Assembly: GCA_009692365.1 (NCBI GenBank)
Contig: SHZJ01000004.1
Coordinates: 1 to 64,000, forward strand
Reading direction: 5' to 3'
Length of the DNA: 64,000 bases
Source of the DNA: Gammaproteobacteria bacterium
GTDB taxonomy: Bacteria; Pseudomonadota; Gammaproteobacteria; Ga0077536
A model generated the notes under the pieces. That model did not search any database. It was not told the origin of the DNA and saw only the letters and a program-made list of their open reading frames with translations. Each line of letters starts with the position of its first letter. The first letter of the stretch is position 1. A program made the translations under genes and the position numbers. Shown here in pieces: positions 1,180 through 14,376 of the stretch.

Positions 1180-1890
1180 TCAGCGCAAACCCAGAAAGTC
1201 GGTCAGCAGATGGGCAAACGGGGCTTGGTCAGGTGCGTTTTGATAGCTCTCCAGGGCGAGTGCACGGATGGCGGGTGGGATGTCGAAGGTCTCTTCGAGG
1301 GTCATCTCGCGCATGAAATCCGAGGTAAATTCCGGGTGCGCCTGGATGCCCAACATGCGCTCGCCCAGGGTAAAAATAGCTTGGGGACAGTGGGCGGTGC
1401 TGGCAATTATTTGGGCGTCGGGGGGGAGGGTCAGGACTTGATCCTGATGCGCCATGTGCAGTTTTAGCAGGCCTGAAGGCCACGCCAGGCCCGGCATAGG
1501 GCGGTGTACCTGATGCTCGATATTGCCCAAACCCCAGCCCTCGTTGCTGCGCATGGTGTGCCCGCCAAACGTGCTGGCTAACAGCTGATGACCAAAACAA
1601 ATCCCGACCAAAGGTGCGCCCGTGCCCACAATGCTGCGCACGCAGGCGGTGAGCGGCGCCATCCACGACACCGGCTCGTAGACGGCGGTTCGTGAGCCGC
1701 TGATCAGCCAGGCATCACATTCTTGCGGGCTGGCGGGCAGTACCCCGCGATGGGTCGCGTAGGGCACGAGATCAAAGCGTGCGCCGGCCGCATCCAGCAG
1801 GGCGTTAAACATGTCGGGATAGTCGCCGTGGCGGCCCCGCAGGGGCTCCCAGATCACATCGCAAACCAGCAACCCCAGCCGCGGGATCAC
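1180..1890 (-). CDS. Class I glutamine amidotransferase-like protein (GMP synthase-like / gamma-glutamyl hydrolase-like)
   Basis: GICFGHQLLA nucleophile motif and GIQAHPEF His/Glu motif. Confidence 0.85.
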   Translation of the reverse strand: MIPRLGLLVCDVIWEPLRGRHGDYPDMFNALLDAAGARFDLVPYATHRGVLPASPQECDAWLISGSRTAVYEPVSWMAPLTACVRSIVGTGAPLVGICFGHQLLASTFGGHTMRSNEGWGLGNIEHQVHRPMPGLAWPSGLLKLHMAHQDQVLTLPPDAQIIASTAHCPQAIFTLGERMLGIQAHPEFTSDFMREMTLEETFDIPPAIRALALESYQNAPDQAPFAHLLTDFLGLR

Positions 1891-2771
1891 GGCGGGACTG
1901 CTGCGCCCCAGTTGATCAGGCGGCGCGTATAGGGTTCGATGAACGGCGTGCGGTAACCATCCTCACGCCAGAGCGTGGGGAAATAAGACTCGTCCATTTG
2001 GTTGTCGCCAAAGCGTTTGTAGCGGCTGTAAATGGCGCCCACGTGGTGGGGGTCAAATTGGGTTGCGCTGGACATACAGTGCGCCACCAGTGCGCGCCGC
2101 GGCACGGCGCGGCGGTTGACGTCTGAGCCATGCCAGATCCAGCCGCTGTGGAAAGCGCCGCCACCGGCTTTCACCACGATGGGCACGCGCTCGACCACCT
2201 CGGCCCCGGCGCGGGCCGCGGCTTTCAGCAGGTCGGTGGTGGGATTTTCGGGGGCGTGAAATTGCTCGATCATGCCGGCCTGCCCCCACCGGTGCGAGCC
2301 GCGCACATATTCCACCGTGCCGCCTGCGGCGGTGGTGTCGTCCAGTGCAATCCAGCAGCTCACCCCGTCGGGGATGGTCGTCCACTGCTCGTAGGCGGCG
2401 TCCTGATGAAAGCCCAATGGTTTGCCACCGGGTGGCTTCCACAAGACGTTGTCCTGCCGCAGGCGGGCCCCGGGCCAGCCGCCCAAGCGCGCGCACGCCC
2501 GTCCGATGGCGGGTTGTAGCAGCACGCTGGCCAGGTAACGGTCGGCCTTCCAACCGTTGCAGATTTGGCGGGTGTGGTCCGGGGGGTCGCGGCCCTCGCG
2601 CCAATTAACCTCATCGGGCATCAGCCCGGTTTCCCAGCGACCCTGGAATAATTCCTCGTAGCGTTCGCGCACCAGCGCCACTTCTTCGGGGCTGATGATT
2701 TGCGCCACCGCAATGAAGCCATCCGTGCGGAAAGCGGCGATCTGTTGGTCGGTGAGGTCAAAATTGTTCAT
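1887..2771 (-). CDS. Phytanoyl-CoA dioxygenase (PhyH) family protein
   Basis: 294 aa; GFHQDAAYEQW and GGGAFHSGWIWHGSDVN metal/2-OG motifs; stop/start overlap with the GATase gene. Confidence 0.85.
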   Translation of the reverse strand: MNNFDLTDQQIAAFRTDGFIAVAQIISPEEVALVRERYEELFQGRWETGLMPDEVNWREGRDPPDHTRQICNGWKADRYLASVLLQPAIGRACARLGGWPGARLRQDNVLWKPPGGKPLGFHQDAAYEQWTTIPDGVSCWIALDDTTAAGGTVEYVRGSHRWGQAGMIEQFHAPENPTTDLLKAAARAGAEVVERVPIVVKAGGGAFHSGWIWHGSDVNRRAVPRRALVAHCMSSATQFDPHHVGAIYSRYKRFGDNQMDESYFPTLWREDGYRTPFIEPYTRRLINWGAAVPP

Positions 2772-2844
2772 CTGATCTCCGTGCGGCGTGGCGGCGGCAG
2801 GTCGCTCCAGCTAGATTATCGGCCGCCGCGTGACGAGCTTCGGC

Positions 2845-4203
2845 TCACACGTGGTGGAAATAACGTTGGCGCTCGAAGGCCGACACGTGGCGGCGCATCA
2901 AGGTGTCTTCGTGGAGACAGTTAGCACAGAAGTGGTCCACGAAGCTCGCCCCGAACAGCCCACGGGCGAGGGGGCTGCGCTGCATGCGCTCGGCGGCTTC
3001 CAGCAGGGTGCGGGGTAGGGGGCCAAACTCGGGGTGTACCTGTTCCCGGCCGATGTCGCGGCTCGCGGGGGGCGGCGTGAGGCCTTGCTCGATGCCATTC
3101 AAACCCGCTCCCAGCAGCATGGCGAAAGCCAGATGCGGGTTCATGTCGGCGCCGGGCAGGCGCAGTTCTAGCCGGGTGTCGGCCGGGGCACCGGTAATCG
3201 CGCGCAGGCCGCAGGTGTAGTTGCCGAGCCCCCAGGTCGCGCTGCGGGGCGCCCAGTTGCCCGGGACGTAGCGGCGGTAGGCGTTCACGGTGCTGGCCAA
3301 CATCGGCATGAGATCCGGCAAGCCCTGCAGCACGCCGGCGATGAAGTGATGCGCCAGCGCTGACAGCCCATTGCCGTCGTCGGCGTGCAACAGCCATTGG
3401 CCGCTCCGGACATCGCGCAGAGAAATAATCGGATGCCCACCCAGCCCCGGATGGTCGTCAGACAGCTGGGCCATGAAGGAGGCGGTGAGGCCCCGCGTAA
3501 TCGCGAACGCCTTGGTGAACAGCTTGAAGAGCGCGGCGTCGTCGGCGGCGTTTAACAGCGCCCGGGTGGGGAGTGCGGCTTCCAGACAGCCCGGCCCGAG
3601 CTCCGCGCAGACGTGATGGAGCGGTACATCGCCGGCGCCCAAACTATCTACATAGTCGCGGATGAAGTGCGCGCCGGTGGCCGGATATAGGCCCGCCCAG
3701 CAGCGGTTTTCCGGCGCATGGGTGGTGAGATTCGCATAGCCTTTGGCGCTCAGACTGGCCGGGGTTTCGGCCAGCAGGATGAATTCAAACTCGCTGCCGC
3801 CACAGGCCTCCAGCCCGAGGTCGGCGGCGCGTGCAATTTGTTGGCCCAGCAGTGCGCGCGGTGAGAGCGCGCGGTTAGCGGCGGTGTAATCCGCCACGAT
3901 GAGCGCGCTATTGGGTTCGAAGGGGTAAGGCCGCAGACTCGCGGGGTCGAGCGCGCAGGGGGCGTGTTGGTAGGGACGGTCGGCGCGCACCGTATCGTTG
4001 GGGCCCCAATAGGGCAAGGCGTCGATGAACGACCAGCCCCGGTGCAGGTACTCGGCGCACAGGCTGGCCGGCAGTCTTTTCTCGCGAAAAACGCCTTCGG
4101 TATCGAACAACCCCGCATGCACGTATTCAATGCCCTGACGCTCCAGAATGAGGCAGGCGGCGGTGGGGTCCGAGGGCGCCCAGCGGGGTGGGGTAATGCT
4201 CAT
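2845..4203 (-). CDS. Glutamine synthetase-family ligase (glutamate-amine ligase-like)
   Basis: 452 aa; GSEFEF, CAELGPGCLEAAL, GGHPIISL and ELRLPGADMNPHLAFAMLLGAGLNGIE resemble the GS catalytic core but are divergent. Confidence 0.8.
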   Translation of the reverse strand: MSITPPRWAPSDPTAACLILERQGIEYVHAGLFDTEGVFREKRLPASLCAEYLHRGWSFIDALPYWGPNDTVRADRPYQHAPCALDPASLRPYPFEPNSALIVADYTAANRALSPRALLGQQIARAADLGLEACGGSEFEFILLAETPASLSAKGYANLTTHAPENRCWAGLYPATGAHFIRDYVDSLGAGDVPLHHVCAELGPGCLEAALPTRALLNAADDAALFKLFTKAFAITRGLTASFMAQLSDDHPGLGGHPIISLRDVRSGQWLLHADDGNGLSALAHHFIAGVLQGLPDLMPMLASTVNAYRRYVPGNWAPRSATWGLGNYTCGLRAITGAPADTRLELRLPGADMNPHLAFAMLLGAGLNGIEQGLTPPPASRDIGREQVHPEFGPLPRTLLEAAERMQRSPLARGLFGASFVDHFCANCLHEDTLMRRHVSAFERQRYFHHV

Positions 4204-4287
4204 GTGTGGAGCCAGAGTAGAGAATGTTTATCCTGATTAACAGACGTGATATATCGGAGCCAGCCCGCAACGCTCCTAGGAGGATCA

Positions 4288-4701
4288 ATGCCAGACATGC
4301 CAACTGGGGTGCAACTCAATCAGAGCCACGCCTCCACCGACGACTTCATCACCCGGACCCATGTGCTGCCCCTCCTGACCGACCCCGCGGTGCGCAAAAA
4401 GCTGCTTGCTGAACACGCCGGGAACCCCATCGGGCTCCCCGGCAAAGCCGGCCACGCGGGCGTCCAACATACCGAAGAACTCTCGCGGGTCATCGATAAA
4501 CTGCGCCGCGCGCCGATGGCGGGCAAATATGTGCGGATCTGCGTGCGGTTGCACGCGGACTATCGCATCGGCGTGTGCGCTGGGGTGCGCGGCAAGCCGG
4601 TTAAAATCATGCCGAAGTCCTACCCCTCGGAGGACGCGTGTGAGCATGCCATCTTCTTGCGCCGCGTGACGGAACTGCTGGCCCACTACGGCCTGAAATA
4701 G
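4288..4701 (+). CDS. N,N-dimethylformamidase small (alpha) subunit-like protein
   Basis: AGGAGG 6 nt upstream of ATG 4288; ~137 aa; immediately precedes the large-subunit gene, as in known DMFase operons. Confidence 0.65.
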   Translation: MPDMPTGVQLNQSHASTDDFITRTHVLPLLTDPAVRKKLLAEHAGNPIGLPGKAGHAGVQHTEELSRVIDKLRRAPMAGKYVRICVRLHADYRIGVCAGVRGKPVKIMPKSYPSEDACEHAIFLRRVTELLAHYGLK

Positions 4702-4761
4702 CCGCTCGCCAGCGCGCGACCTAACTCCCAACTGACCCCATCGATGTAAGAGGATTTAGCC

Positions 4762-7146
4762 ATGCTACGCATCACTGGTTATAGCGATTGCTACAGCGCG
4801 TGCCCTAGCGACACCGTCAAGTTTTTCGTGAATTCCGAGAAGAACGAAAGCTATCAAGCCCAGTTGGTCCGTCTGATCCACGGCGATACCAACCCCGAGG
4901 GCCCGGGCTTTAAGGAAGAAGAAATCGCCGCCGCGTGTAACGGCCAGTACCAAGGTCGCGCGCAGAAAATCCACGGGGGCTCCTATGCTGTGATTCCCGC
5001 TGCCACCCGCCTCAACTGCGCTAGCTTCACGGTGCAGGCGTTCATCATGCCGACCACCCCCGGCCCCGGGCCGCATGGCTACTGCCACGACAAAGGTATG
5101 CAGGGCATCGTGACCAAATGGTTAATCGACAAGCAGACCGGTTACGGACTTTTTATCGACGAGGCGGGCTGTTTGGTGGTGATGATCGGCGCGGGCAAGG
5201 GCAAAGTAACGCGGATTTCCAGCGCCAAGCCGCTGCTGCGCAAAGTGTGGTACCTGGTGGCGGCGAGCTACGATGCAGCCACCGGGGCCGTGACGCTTTA
5301 TCAGGAGCCGGTAGTGTCTGCCACCAACGGTGGTCTGGGCATGGCGCTGGTCCATCCGGCCAGCGAGACTAGCGCGGTGGTGACCAGCCTCAGCGCCCAC
5401 GGCCCCGCTGCCAACGATGCCCCGCTGCTGTTGGCGGCGGCCAGTCGGAAAAGCGATTCGGGCCGCGAGATCTGCGGTGGCCATTACCGAGAAGCCACCA
5501 CCCCGGTGGCGCTGCCCGAGCAGGACTGGTGTTACAACGGCAAAATTGATCGTCCGCGCCTCGCGGCCAGCGCCCTGAGCAAAGCAGAAATCGATGCGCT
5601 CGCACGCGGCTTCGAGGGCTGCCCGGCGGCGCTGCGCAGCCGGGTGGTGGGGGCGTGGGATTTCCACGCCAACATCACCACGAGCATCGCCAGCTGCCAG
5701 ATCCTCGACCGCTCGCCCAACCGGTTAAATGGCTTTGTGATCAACCTGCCGGTGCGTGCTATGACCGGCTATAACTGGACCGGCGACGACATCGTCTACC
5801 ACCACGCGCCCACCGAATACGGCGCGATCCACTTCCACGACGATGACATCGACGATGCCCGTTGGGAGACCGATTTTAGCCTCACGCTGCCCGCGACCCT
5901 CAAGAGCGGCGTCTACGCGGTGCGCTTGCGCATTGGTGGCGAAAACACGCCGGAAACGGAGGATTACATCCCGTTTTTCGTGCGCCCGCCGCGCGGCAAG
6001 GCCACCGCAAAAATTTGCTTCATCGCGCCGACCAATAGCTACCTGGCCTATTCAAACGACAACCTCGCCACCAACTCCGTGGTGGCCGAGTTGCTGGCCG
6101 GGCGGGTGCCGATCATGAATGCCTCGGACCTGTTCTTGAACGAGCATCGCGAGTATGGCCTGTCCACTTACTCCTGCCATTCGGACGGCTCGGGGGTGTG
6201 CTACAGCTCGCGGCTGCGGCCCATCTTGAATATGCGGCCGAAGTATCGGCACTGGCTGTCGCCCTCGCTGTGGCAGTTCAACGCGGATATGCACCTCACC
6301 GACTGGCTGGAAGAAATGGGCTTCGAATTCGATGTCCACACCGACGAGGACGTGGACCGCGAAGGTCTCGATCTGCTGGCGCGCTACCGGGTGGTGCTCA
6401 CCGGCAGCCATCCCGAATACTCGTCCGAGAAAATGCTCGACGCCTACACCGCCTACCAGGCCAGCGGCGGACGTTGGATGTACTTGGGTGCCGACGGTTT
6501 CTACTGGTGCAGCCAGTATCATCCCGACAACAGCAACATCATCGAAGTGCGCAAAGGCGAGGCCGGCACGCGGGCGTGGACCGCCAATCCCGGCGAATAC
6601 AACAACGCTTTCGACGGCAAATACGGCGGCATGTGGCGCGCGCGCGGCCGCATCCCCAGCAAAATCTGTGGCCTGACGTTTACCGGCTATGGCTTTGATG
6701 TCTCGACCTACTATCGGCGCGAACCAGACAGCCAGCGGCCGGAATGCAAATGGATCTTCGCGGGCATCGGCGCGGACGAAATCATCGGTGATTTCGGGCT
6801 AGTGGGCGGCGGCGCTGCGGGCCTGGAAATCGATCGCTACGATCTGGAATTCGGCACGCCGCACAACGCCTATTTGCTCGCACGCTCGGAAGGCCACACG
6901 GATCTCATGCTGCAAGTGAACGAGGAAATTCACTTCAGCGTGCGCGGCTACTACGGCGGTGGCGACGAAAATCCGATGATTCGGGCCGACATGATCTATT
7001 ACAAAACGCCTAACGACGGCGCGGTGTTCGCCCCGGGGTCGTTGGCCTGGTGTGGTGCGCTCTCCCATAACGACTACAAAAATAACGTGTCGCGCCTGAT
7101 GAAAAACGTGCTCAAGGGCTTTATGAAGCCCGGTGCATTGCCTTGA
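4762..7146 (+). CDS. N,N-dimethylformamidase large (beta) subunit-like protein
   Basis: 794 aa; LamG/ConA-like N-terminal half and long C-terminal domain (SYLAYSNDNLATNS, LTGSHPEYSSEKMLDAYTAYQASGGRWMYLGADGFYW) recognised as the DMFase beta-subunit type. Confidence 0.8.
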   Translation: MLRITGYSDCYSACPSDTVKFFVNSEKNESYQAQLVRLIHGDTNPEGPGFKEEEIAAACNGQYQGRAQKIHGGSYAVIPAATRLNCASFTVQAFIMPTTPGPGPHGYCHDKGMQGIVTKWLIDKQTGYGLFIDEAGCLVVMIGAGKGKVTRISSAKPLLRKVWYLVAASYDAATGAVTLYQEPVVSATNGGLGMALVHPASETSAVVTSLSAHGPAANDAPLLLAAASRKSDSGREICGGHYREATTPVALPEQDWCYNGKIDRPRLAASALSKAEIDALARGFEGCPAALRSRVVGAWDFHANITTSIASCQILDRSPNRLNGFVINLPVRAMTGYNWTGDDIVYHHAPTEYGAIHFHDDDIDDARWETDFSLTLPATLKSGVYAVRLRIGGENTPETEDYIPFFVRPPRGKATAKICFIAPTNSYLAYSNDNLATNSVVAELLAGRVPIMNASDLFLNEHREYGLSTYSCHSDGSGVCYSSRLRPILNMRPKYRHWLSPSLWQFNADMHLTDWLEEMGFEFDVHTDEDVDREGLDLLARYRVVLTGSHPEYSSEKMLDAYTAYQASGGRWMYLGADGFYWCSQYHPDNSNIIEVRKGEAGTRAWTANPGEYNNAFDGKYGGMWRARGRIPSKICGLTFTGYGFDVSTYYRREPDSQRPECKWIFAGIGADEIIGDFGLVGGGAAGLEIDRYDLEFGTPHNAYLLARSEGHTDLMLQVNEEIHFSVRGYYGGGDENPMIRADMIYYKTPNDGAVFAPGSLAWCGALSHNDYKNNVSRLMKNVLKGFMKPGALP

Positions 7147-7526
7147 GAGCCGCGCCAGAGCGACGCTCGACCGGTGGCCGGGTGGTGGGGTTGCCGCCCG
7201 GAAAAACCTTTATGCCGGCGTTAGAGGGTGGCCCTAGCGAGCTGGAGCAGGCGGTGCTGGGCACGCCCGATCCCGACCGCATGAACCAGCTGGGGGAATG
7301 TCTGTTTACACTCAACAGCCGTCGCTTTGGCCCCATCCCCGGGGCCTATGTGGTGGTGTGCGTGGAGCCCGCGCGCCGTTGGTGCGTAGGGCAGTTGAGC
7401 GCCGACCGCGCACGACCGCTGGTGCTGTTCGACGACCTGATGTTTACCGATCCGGTGCTGGCCCAAGAGGCCGCTGAGGGCCTGCGGACGGCGCGCGGCG
7501 AGGGTCATCCACAACGCAGCATCTGA
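7143..7526 (+). CDS. Hypothetical protein translationally coupled to the DMFase-like gene
   Basis: TTG start overlaps the upstream stop (ttga); 127 aa; no family recognised. Confidence 0.5.
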   Translation: MRAAPERRSTGGRVVGLPPGKTFMPALEGGPSELEQAVLGTPDPDRMNQLGECLFTLNSRRFGPIPGAYVVVCVEPARRWCVGQLSADRARPLVLFDDLMFTDPVLAQEAAEGLRTARGEGHPQRSI

Positions 7527-13275: not shown

Positions 13276-14376
13276 TTAAGCCGCCCATGGAATTTTGCCC
13301 GTGACGGCGCGGGCCTGCAGCCGCGGCATCACGTCTTGGGCAAACGCGCGCAGATTGCGTTGGGCTTCTGCTGCGGGCATGCCGGCGTAGCTGAACAGGC
13401 CGATGAAGGCTTCGGCACCAATGCGCTCGGCGTTTTTCACGATGGTTTGGTAGCACATTTCCGGGGTCCCCCAGACCTGTAAATTCATGAAGTAATCGGT
13501 GGCCGCCTCGATGCCACCGCGTTGAATTTTGCTGGCGAATTGACCATAGAACTCGTAGCCCTTTTGGTCTTTGAGGTGGTTTTCGTGGAAGCGGTAGTGG
13601 TCCAGCACGGTTTGCCAGTAACCGCCAATCCATTTTTTAGCCAGTGCGTAGGCGGCGTCGCGGTTCGGATGACACAGCGTCCAGCCGGCGATGATCGGCG
13701 CGGGCGGCGCCTCCCCGTGCAGTTGCGCGTAGGTCTCATTGTACAGGGCGACCTCTTGCTCTACTTGGTCCCAAGGCTTCTGCGGCACCACCAGCAAACC
13801 CACGCCCAGTTGCGCCATGATGGCGATGGACTCTGGAGAAACCGCGGCGGCATAGGTGCGGCCTTTAAAGGTTTTGAACGGGGCCGGGCGGATGTCGGCG
13901 TGGGGCTGCTGCACAAACTCGCCCTGATACTCGCAGTAGCCCTGCTCCAAGCCCGCCAGCACGCATTCGGCGCTCTCCACAAAGCGCTGCCGCGAATCTC
14001 CCATGTCTTGCCGGAAGGCGTCAAATTCTACCCGCCCCGCGCCGCGCCCCAGGCCCAAGATCATGCGCCCGCCGGAGAGGTGGTCGAGCACGGAGATTTG
14101 TTCGGCGATTCGCATAGGGTCGTGCCAAGGCAGCACGATGACCATCGAACCCAGTTTGACGGTGCGCGTGCGCCCTGCCATATAGCTTAAGAACTGGCAG
14201 GGATCTGGGCTCATGGTGTAATCGGTGAAGTGATGCTCGACGGTCCACACGGAGTCGAAGCCCAGTGGTTCGGCGAGTTCTGCGAGCGCCACATCGTTGA
14301 CATAAACCTCGCGGTCGCTGAGCAGCTTGTGCGTGTTCTGGAAAATGACGGACATCCCGGTGTGCATGGGTCGCAA
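13276..14376 (-). CDS. LLM class flavin-dependent oxidoreductase
   Basis: AEPLGFDSVWTVEHHFTDYTMSPDPCQFLSYMAGRTRTVKLGSMVIVLPWHDPMRIAEQISVLDHLSGGRMILGLGRG. Confidence 0.9.
   Translation of the reverse strand: MRPMHTGMSVIFQNTHKLLSDREVYVNDVALAELAEPLGFDSVWTVEHHFTDYTMSPDPCQFLSYMAGRTRTVKLGSMVIVLPWHDPMRIAEQISVLDHLSGGRMILGLGRGAGRVEFDAFRQDMGDSRQRFVESAECVLAGLEQGYCEYQGEFVQQPHADIRPAPFKTFKGRTYAAAVSPESIAIMAQLGVGLLVVPQKPWDQVEQEVALYNETYAQLHGEAPPAPIIAGWTLCHPNRDAAYALAKKWIGGYWQTVLDHYRFHENHLKDQKGYEFYGQFASKIQRGGIEAATDYFMNLQVWGTPEMCYQTIVKNAERIGAEAFIGLFSYAGMPAAEAQRNLRAFAQDVMPRLQARAVTGKIPWAA

Follow-up and report, generated by a model that had tools for sequence, protein, structure and literature searches.

The DNA analyzed here, referred to as the window, is a stretch of 64,000 nt (positions 1-64,000 of contig SHZJ01000004.1) from Gammaproteobacteria bacterium GCA_009692365.1 (Ga0077536), a genome labelled G000. 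At its left end two divergent operons are found. A dimethylformamidase (DMFase)-type operon runs rightward and encodes the small and large subunits, followed by a protein of 127 amino acids. Leftward runs an operon encoding a glutamine synthetase (GS)-like amine ligase (GS1), a PhyH-type oxygenase and a class I glutamine-amidotransferase-like hydrolase (GATase). An earlier, sequence-only reading had described this six-gene layout, which was confirmed with all genes in place (Table 1). The GATase and PhyH genes share 4 bases, as do the genes for the large subunit and the 127-aa protein. It is considered somewhat probable that the locus combines a DMFase arm with a route for dimethylamine (DMA) which would be independent of DMA monooxygenase (Dmm) and proceed via GS1, PhyH and GATase.

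Table 1 Genes and intergenic region of the two divergent operons at the left end of the window
Feature	Position	Strand	Evidence
Class I glutamine-amidotransferase-like hydrolase (GATase)	1180..1890	(-)	Pfam GATase, E 3e-14
PhyH-type Fe(II)/2-oxoglutarate oxygenase	1887..2771	(-)	Pfam PhyH, E 3e-22
GS1, glutamine-synthetase-like amine ligase	2845..4203	(-)	Pfam Gln-synt_C, E 2e-68
84-bp divergent intergenic region between GS1 and DMFase operon	4204..4287	none	sequence
DMFase small subunit	4288..4701	(+)	relatives' profile against 6lvb_B, E 1e-18
DMFase-like large subunit	4762..7146	(+)	Pfam DMFA2_C, E 8e-96; 6lvb, E 6e-187
Second, divergent DMFase small-subunit-like protein (127 aa)	7143..7526	(+)	profile-profile match to small subunits

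The large subunit matches that of the Paracoccus DMFase (6lvb) over its full length (residues 3-791). The iron ligands of the Paracoccus enzyme are Y399, Y440 and E521, and H519 is its essential catalytic residue (PMC7686228). These residues align with Y430, Y470, E552 and H550 in the window, so that the 2-Tyr-1-carboxylate iron site and the catalytic His are kept. Absence of the iron ligands, which the sequence-only reading had named as speaking against its proposal and so one of its refuting observations, was not seen. The small-subunit gene lies directly upstream of the large-subunit gene. A single-sequence search with the small subunit gave no match in the PDB, and a profile of 21 relatives matched the DMFase small subunit 6lvb_B. 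Its translation probably starts at ATG 4288 and not at the upstream GTG of the listed frame (4246-4701); the ATG is preceded by AGGAGG (4278-4283).

The 127-aa protein had been regarded as an unknown coupled to the large subunit. The coupling held, and the gene is conserved downstream of the large-subunit gene in relatives, but the protein itself proved to be a divergent small-subunit paralogue in profile-profile comparison with the small-subunit family (94.9%, E 4e-8; control against PhyH 0.3%). In a fold search the DMFase small subunit had the top probability (0.72), with an E-value that was not significant. The relationship makes it possible that the DMFase here uses two different small subunits. 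The window thus has both subunits and all iron ligands of Paracoccus DMFase (DmfA1A2), from which it differs by the extra small-subunit-like gene after the large-subunit gene. DMFase homologues occur in 34 of the 36 genomes of the window's family, so what varies within the family is the divergent block, DMFase itself being common. A luciferase-like monooxygenase is encoded near the DMFase operon (window 13276-14376), and 54-55% relatives of it stand beside a second DMFase paralogue in loci L055, L066, L067 and L068, which suggests a second conserved pairing, of luciferase-like monooxygenase and DMFase.

GS1 carries the residues E138, E140, E201, E208, H257, E346 and R348, which are invariant in alignment A2, and the metal- and phosphate-site residues are retained. 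Where canonical GS has its flap Glu (PGYEAP), all 16 of 16 aligned members have Trp (W317 in the window). Two sequence traits of glutamyl organic amide synthetases are present: a GS catalytic domain with metal and Arg ligands, and loss of the flap Glu of ammonium-specific GS. GS1 scored below the equivalog cut-offs of GmaS (TIGR03105, 165.9 vs 469.6 bits) and PuuA (NF045547, 128.2 vs 650 bits), and also well under the curated cut-off of GlnA. In PhyH the iron triad H122-x-D124 and H214 is invariant in 15 sequences (alignment A1), and its predicted fold resembles the natural-product oxygenases SnoK and SnoN and the free amino-acid hydroxylases GriE, H11 and EctD. The GATase has a predicted Cys-His-Glu triad (C97, H184, E186) with intact motifs. 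Its best PDB match is gamma-glutamyl peptidase 1 (9k7i, E 7e-16), and it adjoins PhyH in loci L036, L039, L040, L079, L081 and L093.

Phylogenetic analysis placed GS1 in one clade of 27 proteins. Within 6 kb, PhyH is encoded near 18 of these and a cytochrome P450 near 6; the remaining 3 are close to contig ends. The P450-linked proteins sit at two separate places in the tree. The ligase thus keeps an oxygenase while the type of oxygenase changes, a pattern to be expected of an oxygenase whose substrate is the gamma-glutamyl product. Of the oxidising partners previously proposed, PhyH or nearby flavoenzymes, the first is borne out by its conservation with GS1 (P450 in sister loci) and the flavoenzymes are not. 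Nearby Baeyer-Villiger monooxygenases and luciferase-like enzymes were set aside in this role, for PhyH and not they stays with GS1.

In relatives the full block consists of GS1, usually a second GS-like gene (GS2), PhyH and GATase; the window has no GS2. In the tree GS2 groups with GS-like proteins found at the GmaS position in Mgs clusters. It was rejected as an essential partner for the window, G000 having no GS2 orthologue. Besides the window, five further genomes of the family have the block in divergent orientation to DMFase (L036, L039, L040, L041 and the contig-truncated L037). This recurrence, for which a conserved-neighbourhood search had been recommended, means that block and DMFase co-occur beyond chance. 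GS1 and trimethylamine monooxygenase (Tmm) are divergently oriented in G003, G005 and G008, and Tmm is followed, where the contig reaches, by trimethylamine N-oxide (TMAO) demethylase (Tdm) in G003 and G008. The Tmm and Tdm of G003 score above curated cut-offs (NF058570, 813 vs 675 bits; NF053776, 1216 vs 1100 bits). The neighbours of GS1-PhyH in AT-rich relatives (L078, L099, L101, L102, L104) are GS2, GmaS-like genes and the N-methylglutamate dehydrogenase and synthase genes (Mgd/Mgs). DMA, a product of both DMFase and Tdm, is the one metabolite that links these two enzymes and the methylamine pathway, and the occurrence of the same GS1-PhyH block with Tmm-Tdm and with N-methylglutamate-pathway genes points to DMA as the amine.

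Several further arrangements were observed. GS1-GS2-P450 clusters are present in the window's family, in Dongia and on Ruegeria and Paracoccus plasmids (L087-L091, L225, L227, L232, L233), some also with a DMFase paralogue, a sigma-54 regulator and GATase; they look like parallel amine pathways. In AT-rich relatives a gene of the N-formylglutamate amidohydrolase family lies beside GS1-PhyH in the usual place of GATase (L076 6426-7169, L077, L078). Two groups that are distant from each other have CysD- and CysNC-like sulfate-activation genes next to PhyH (L079 2659-5506, L093, L198 4586-7911, L199). Two records titled Klebsiella pneumoniae (L094, MaE-04nov19-357; L103, MaH-04nov19-186) match metagenome-assembled genomes of the window's uncultured family and are apparently mislabelled.

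The methylamine pathway of G000 is encoded on another contig, C1 (L218). Here a genuine GmaS (TIGR03105, 661 vs 470 bits; glutamate-methylamine ligase 9qur, E 8e-207) is found beside MgsABC and MgdA, MgdC and MgdD, MgdB not having been searched for separately. G000, which is 93% complete, contains no match to the catalytic subunit of Dmm (PF11927), and Dmm was likewise not found in G002, G010, G018, G021, G027 and G030, each at least 91% complete and harbouring GS1-PhyH. Growth of Paracoccus aminophilus on N,N-dimethylformamide (DMF) and on trimethylamine (TMA) depends on its dmm genes (PMC4543880). Another DMA step is therefore expected in a genome with DMFase and a methylamine pathway that lacks Dmm, and GS1-PhyH would suit this step. 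The sister genome G004, the nearest relative (DmfL 96% identical), harbours full DmmABCD; no orthologue of the window's GS1 or PhyH was found in it, the one GS1 relative that it has, at 44%, being encoded next to a P450. A HODM homologue in G003 was first read as Dmm and then rejected, since it is flanked by a beta-lactamase-like gene and by large proteins that show no relationship to DmmA, DmmB and DmmD. The HODM homologues of G001, G005 and G008 had, by their size, first been read as Dmm too; the reading of the neighbours covered G003.

In the proposed pathway, DMFase would hydrolyse DMF or a related amide to give DMA, as its homology suggests. With ATP, GS1 would join DMA to the gamma-carboxyl group of glutamate, yielding gamma-glutamyl-dimethylamide. 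PhyH would then hydroxylate one N-methyl group, and loss of formaldehyde would leave gamma-glutamyl-methylamide. This compound could enter the N-methylglutamate pathway encoded on contig C1 directly, because it is the normal product of GmaS, or as released methylamine. GATase may hydrolyse gamma-glutamyl amides to glutamate and an amine such as methylamine, a role suggested by the GAT-like enzyme of the aniline system, which hydrolyses gamma-glutamylanilide (PMC11335346). The earlier idea of trapping, oxidising and releasing the amine has thus gained from the linkage to Tmm-Tdm and the N-methylglutamate pathway and from the occurrence of the block where Dmm is missing, while all substrates, the order of the steps and the target of GATase are inferred.

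The combination of a GS-like ligase, a GAT-like hydrolase and an oxygenase is established for the degradation of aniline and 1-naphthylamine (AtdA1-A5, TdnQ/T, NpaA1-A5; PMC11335346). In these systems a gamma-glutamyl conjugate is made by the ligase and hydrolysed by the GAT-like enzyme, and the window has both types of enzyme. Their oxygenase, however, is a Rieske dioxygenase and their substrates are aromatic primary amines, whereas the locus has PhyH (P450 in sister loci) in place of a Rieske dioxygenase, presumably for an aliphatic secondary amine. The similarity of GS1 to 8wwu, which we take to be NpaA1, is distant (E 3e-17). Gamma-glutamylation, oxidation and hydrolysis also follow each other in the Puu putrescine pathway and with the isopropylamine glutamylation enzyme; the gamma-glutamylation logic is alike, and the oxidising enzymes differ from those of the window. 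The Puu and isopropylamine ligases are listed among the glutamyl organic amide synthetases (PMC11335346). DmmDABC has the same place as that proposed here, from DMA to the level of methylamine, downstream of Tdm or DMFase (PMC5520151, PMC4543880), but is a multi-subunit monooxygenase acting on free DMA, present in sister genome G004 and without a homologue in G000. The N-methylglutamate pathway (GmaS, MgsABC, MgdABCD) likewise starts with ligation of the amine to glutamate by a GS-like enzyme. It differs in having no oxygenase, and GS1 is far below the GmaS cut-off while a genuine GmaS is encoded elsewhere in G000.

Relatives of PhyH also occur outside the window's family. A scan of species genomes yielded 307 of them, the best 80 of which come from alphaproteobacteria, gammaproteobacteria, a SAR324 bin and other sources. 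When 385 sampled alphaproteobacterial genomes were compared, with PhyH counted at 50% identity or more, PhyH was present in 15 of 35 genomes with Tdm and in 3 of 350 without it (Fisher 6e-15; 5e-8 minus 7 related or previously known genomes); these genomes are not independent, and the p-values are indicative. PhyH at this identity was never accompanied by a full-length homologue of the Dmm catalytic subunit (HODM): one was present in none of the 15 genomes with both Tdm and PhyH and in 6 of the 20 other Tdm-positive genomes (p 0.024; 0.10 minus the same 7). In cultured Dongia mobilis and relatives, PhyH is located between GmaS-like/Mgs genes and Tmm-Tdm, and no HODM was found in the D. mobilis genome. 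A search for PhyH in plasmids gave no match; Ruegeria and Paracoccus plasmids carry a combination of P450, GS1, GS2 and GATase, under annotations that name nothing but glutamine synthetases. A single-contig alphaproteobacterial genome of 1.41 Mb (G112) harbours Tmm, Tdm, TmoXWV-like and GmaS-like genes (L198 9013-11133, L228); its PhyH orthologue adjoins a class I GATase, and its HODM match is no more than weak. It is tentatively suggested, as a reading somewhat less likely than not, that GS1 with PhyH or P450 may form a widespread and hitherto undescribed Dmm-independent route, taking DMA as its gamma-glutamyl conjugate directly to gamma-glutamyl-methylamide, the entry compound of the N-methylglutamate pathway, in many Dmm-less proteobacteria that make DMA from TMAO or DMF, including Dongia and small-genome alphaproteobacteria.

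A number of observations weigh against a DMA route at this locus. The enzyme activities are predicted from the genes. G000 is 93% complete, and the negative result on known DMA enzymes covers Dmm, no search having been made for a DMA dehydrogenase. Most DMFase-bearing members of the family have no GS1-PhyH at the DMFase locus, and about half of the PhyH relatives have no known one-carbon genes in the stretch examined around them. The PhyH of Dongia adjoins Tmm-Tdm without an adjacent GS1, the GS1-GS2 of this organism lying elsewhere beside a P450, and the mutual exclusion of PhyH and HODM is weak. Some alphaproteobacterial GS1-PhyH loci include a spermidine/putrescine-type ABC transporter, and the clade therefore probably serves more than one amine.

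Such transporters, found together with sigma-54 regulators, would also fit an explanation in which GS1, PhyH and GATase glutamylate another alkylamine or a polyamine, and the DMFase and Tmm-Tdm neighbourhood reflects general nitrogen-scavenging clustering. The P450 versions on Ruegeria and Paracoccus plasmids and the lack of the block at most DMFase loci agree with this explanation. It is nevertheless rated as rather unlikely, since within the window's family nearly every copy of the block has genes for DMA production or methylamine consumption next to it, and the occurrence of PhyH among alphaproteobacteria follows that of Tdm. The substrate of the window's DMFase could itself be another amide, such as a lactam after ring opening or an N-formyl intermediate, formed by neighbouring luciferase-like monooxygenases, with a product other than DMA. 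N-acetyl-beta-phenylalanine acylase has the same fold, a DMFase paralogue of P. aminophilus is unlinked to DMF use (PMC4543880), and a luciferase-like monooxygenase also stands by the second DMFase paralogue in the four loci named above. The closest solved homologue is DMFase and not the acylase (E 6e-187 vs 3e-138), however, and the association of the same divergent block with Tmm-Tdm would be left unexplained, so that this alternative appears unlikely. Least probable, and quite improbable in itself, is that PhyH demethylates free DMA or another small methylated amine directly, with GS1 and GATase belonging to a different step, for instance the trapping of methylamine or ammonium, as could be read from Dongia and L114, where PhyH adjoins Tmm with no GS1 alongside. 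Against this, GS1 has an oxygenase partner in every case with sufficient flanking sequence, five AT-rich relatives have GS1 next to PhyH at loci apart from DMFase, and the structural relatives of the PhyH fold include free amino-acid hydroxylases.

A Dmm-independent route through a glutamyl conjugate thus is the preferred interpretation. The sequence-only reading had not recognised the combination of genes as described, and the combination and its proposed role do appear new; the logic of ligase, hydrolase and oxygenase had already been described for aniline and 1-naphthylamine (PMC11335346). In the open-licence literature, all papers retrieved on a part played by gamma-glutamyl-dimethylamide or dimethylglutamine in amine degradation were unrelated, and nothing was found on DMA together with phytanoyl-CoA dioxygenase. 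Nor was a description found there of the ligase/GATase/oxygenase logic for DMA, of a PhyH serving as its oxygenase, or of this logic being paired with DMFase or Tmm-Tdm. Each of the enzyme families is known, and it is their combination and its proposed role that are new.

DMA has been described as a bottleneck in the degradation of methylated amines. Many marine bacteria, among which all SAR11 examined, harbour Tmm, Tdm and GmaS but no DmmDABC (PMC5520151). If true, the route would explain how bacteria without the known DMA enzyme handle DMA, and glutamylation followed by an oxygenase would be a concrete candidate for the fate of DMA in such Tmm/Tdm/GmaS bacteria. It would also provide a second enzyme set for bioremediation of DMF and TMA, as well as marker genes whose current annotation goes no further than glutamine synthetase and phytanoyl-CoA dioxygenase.
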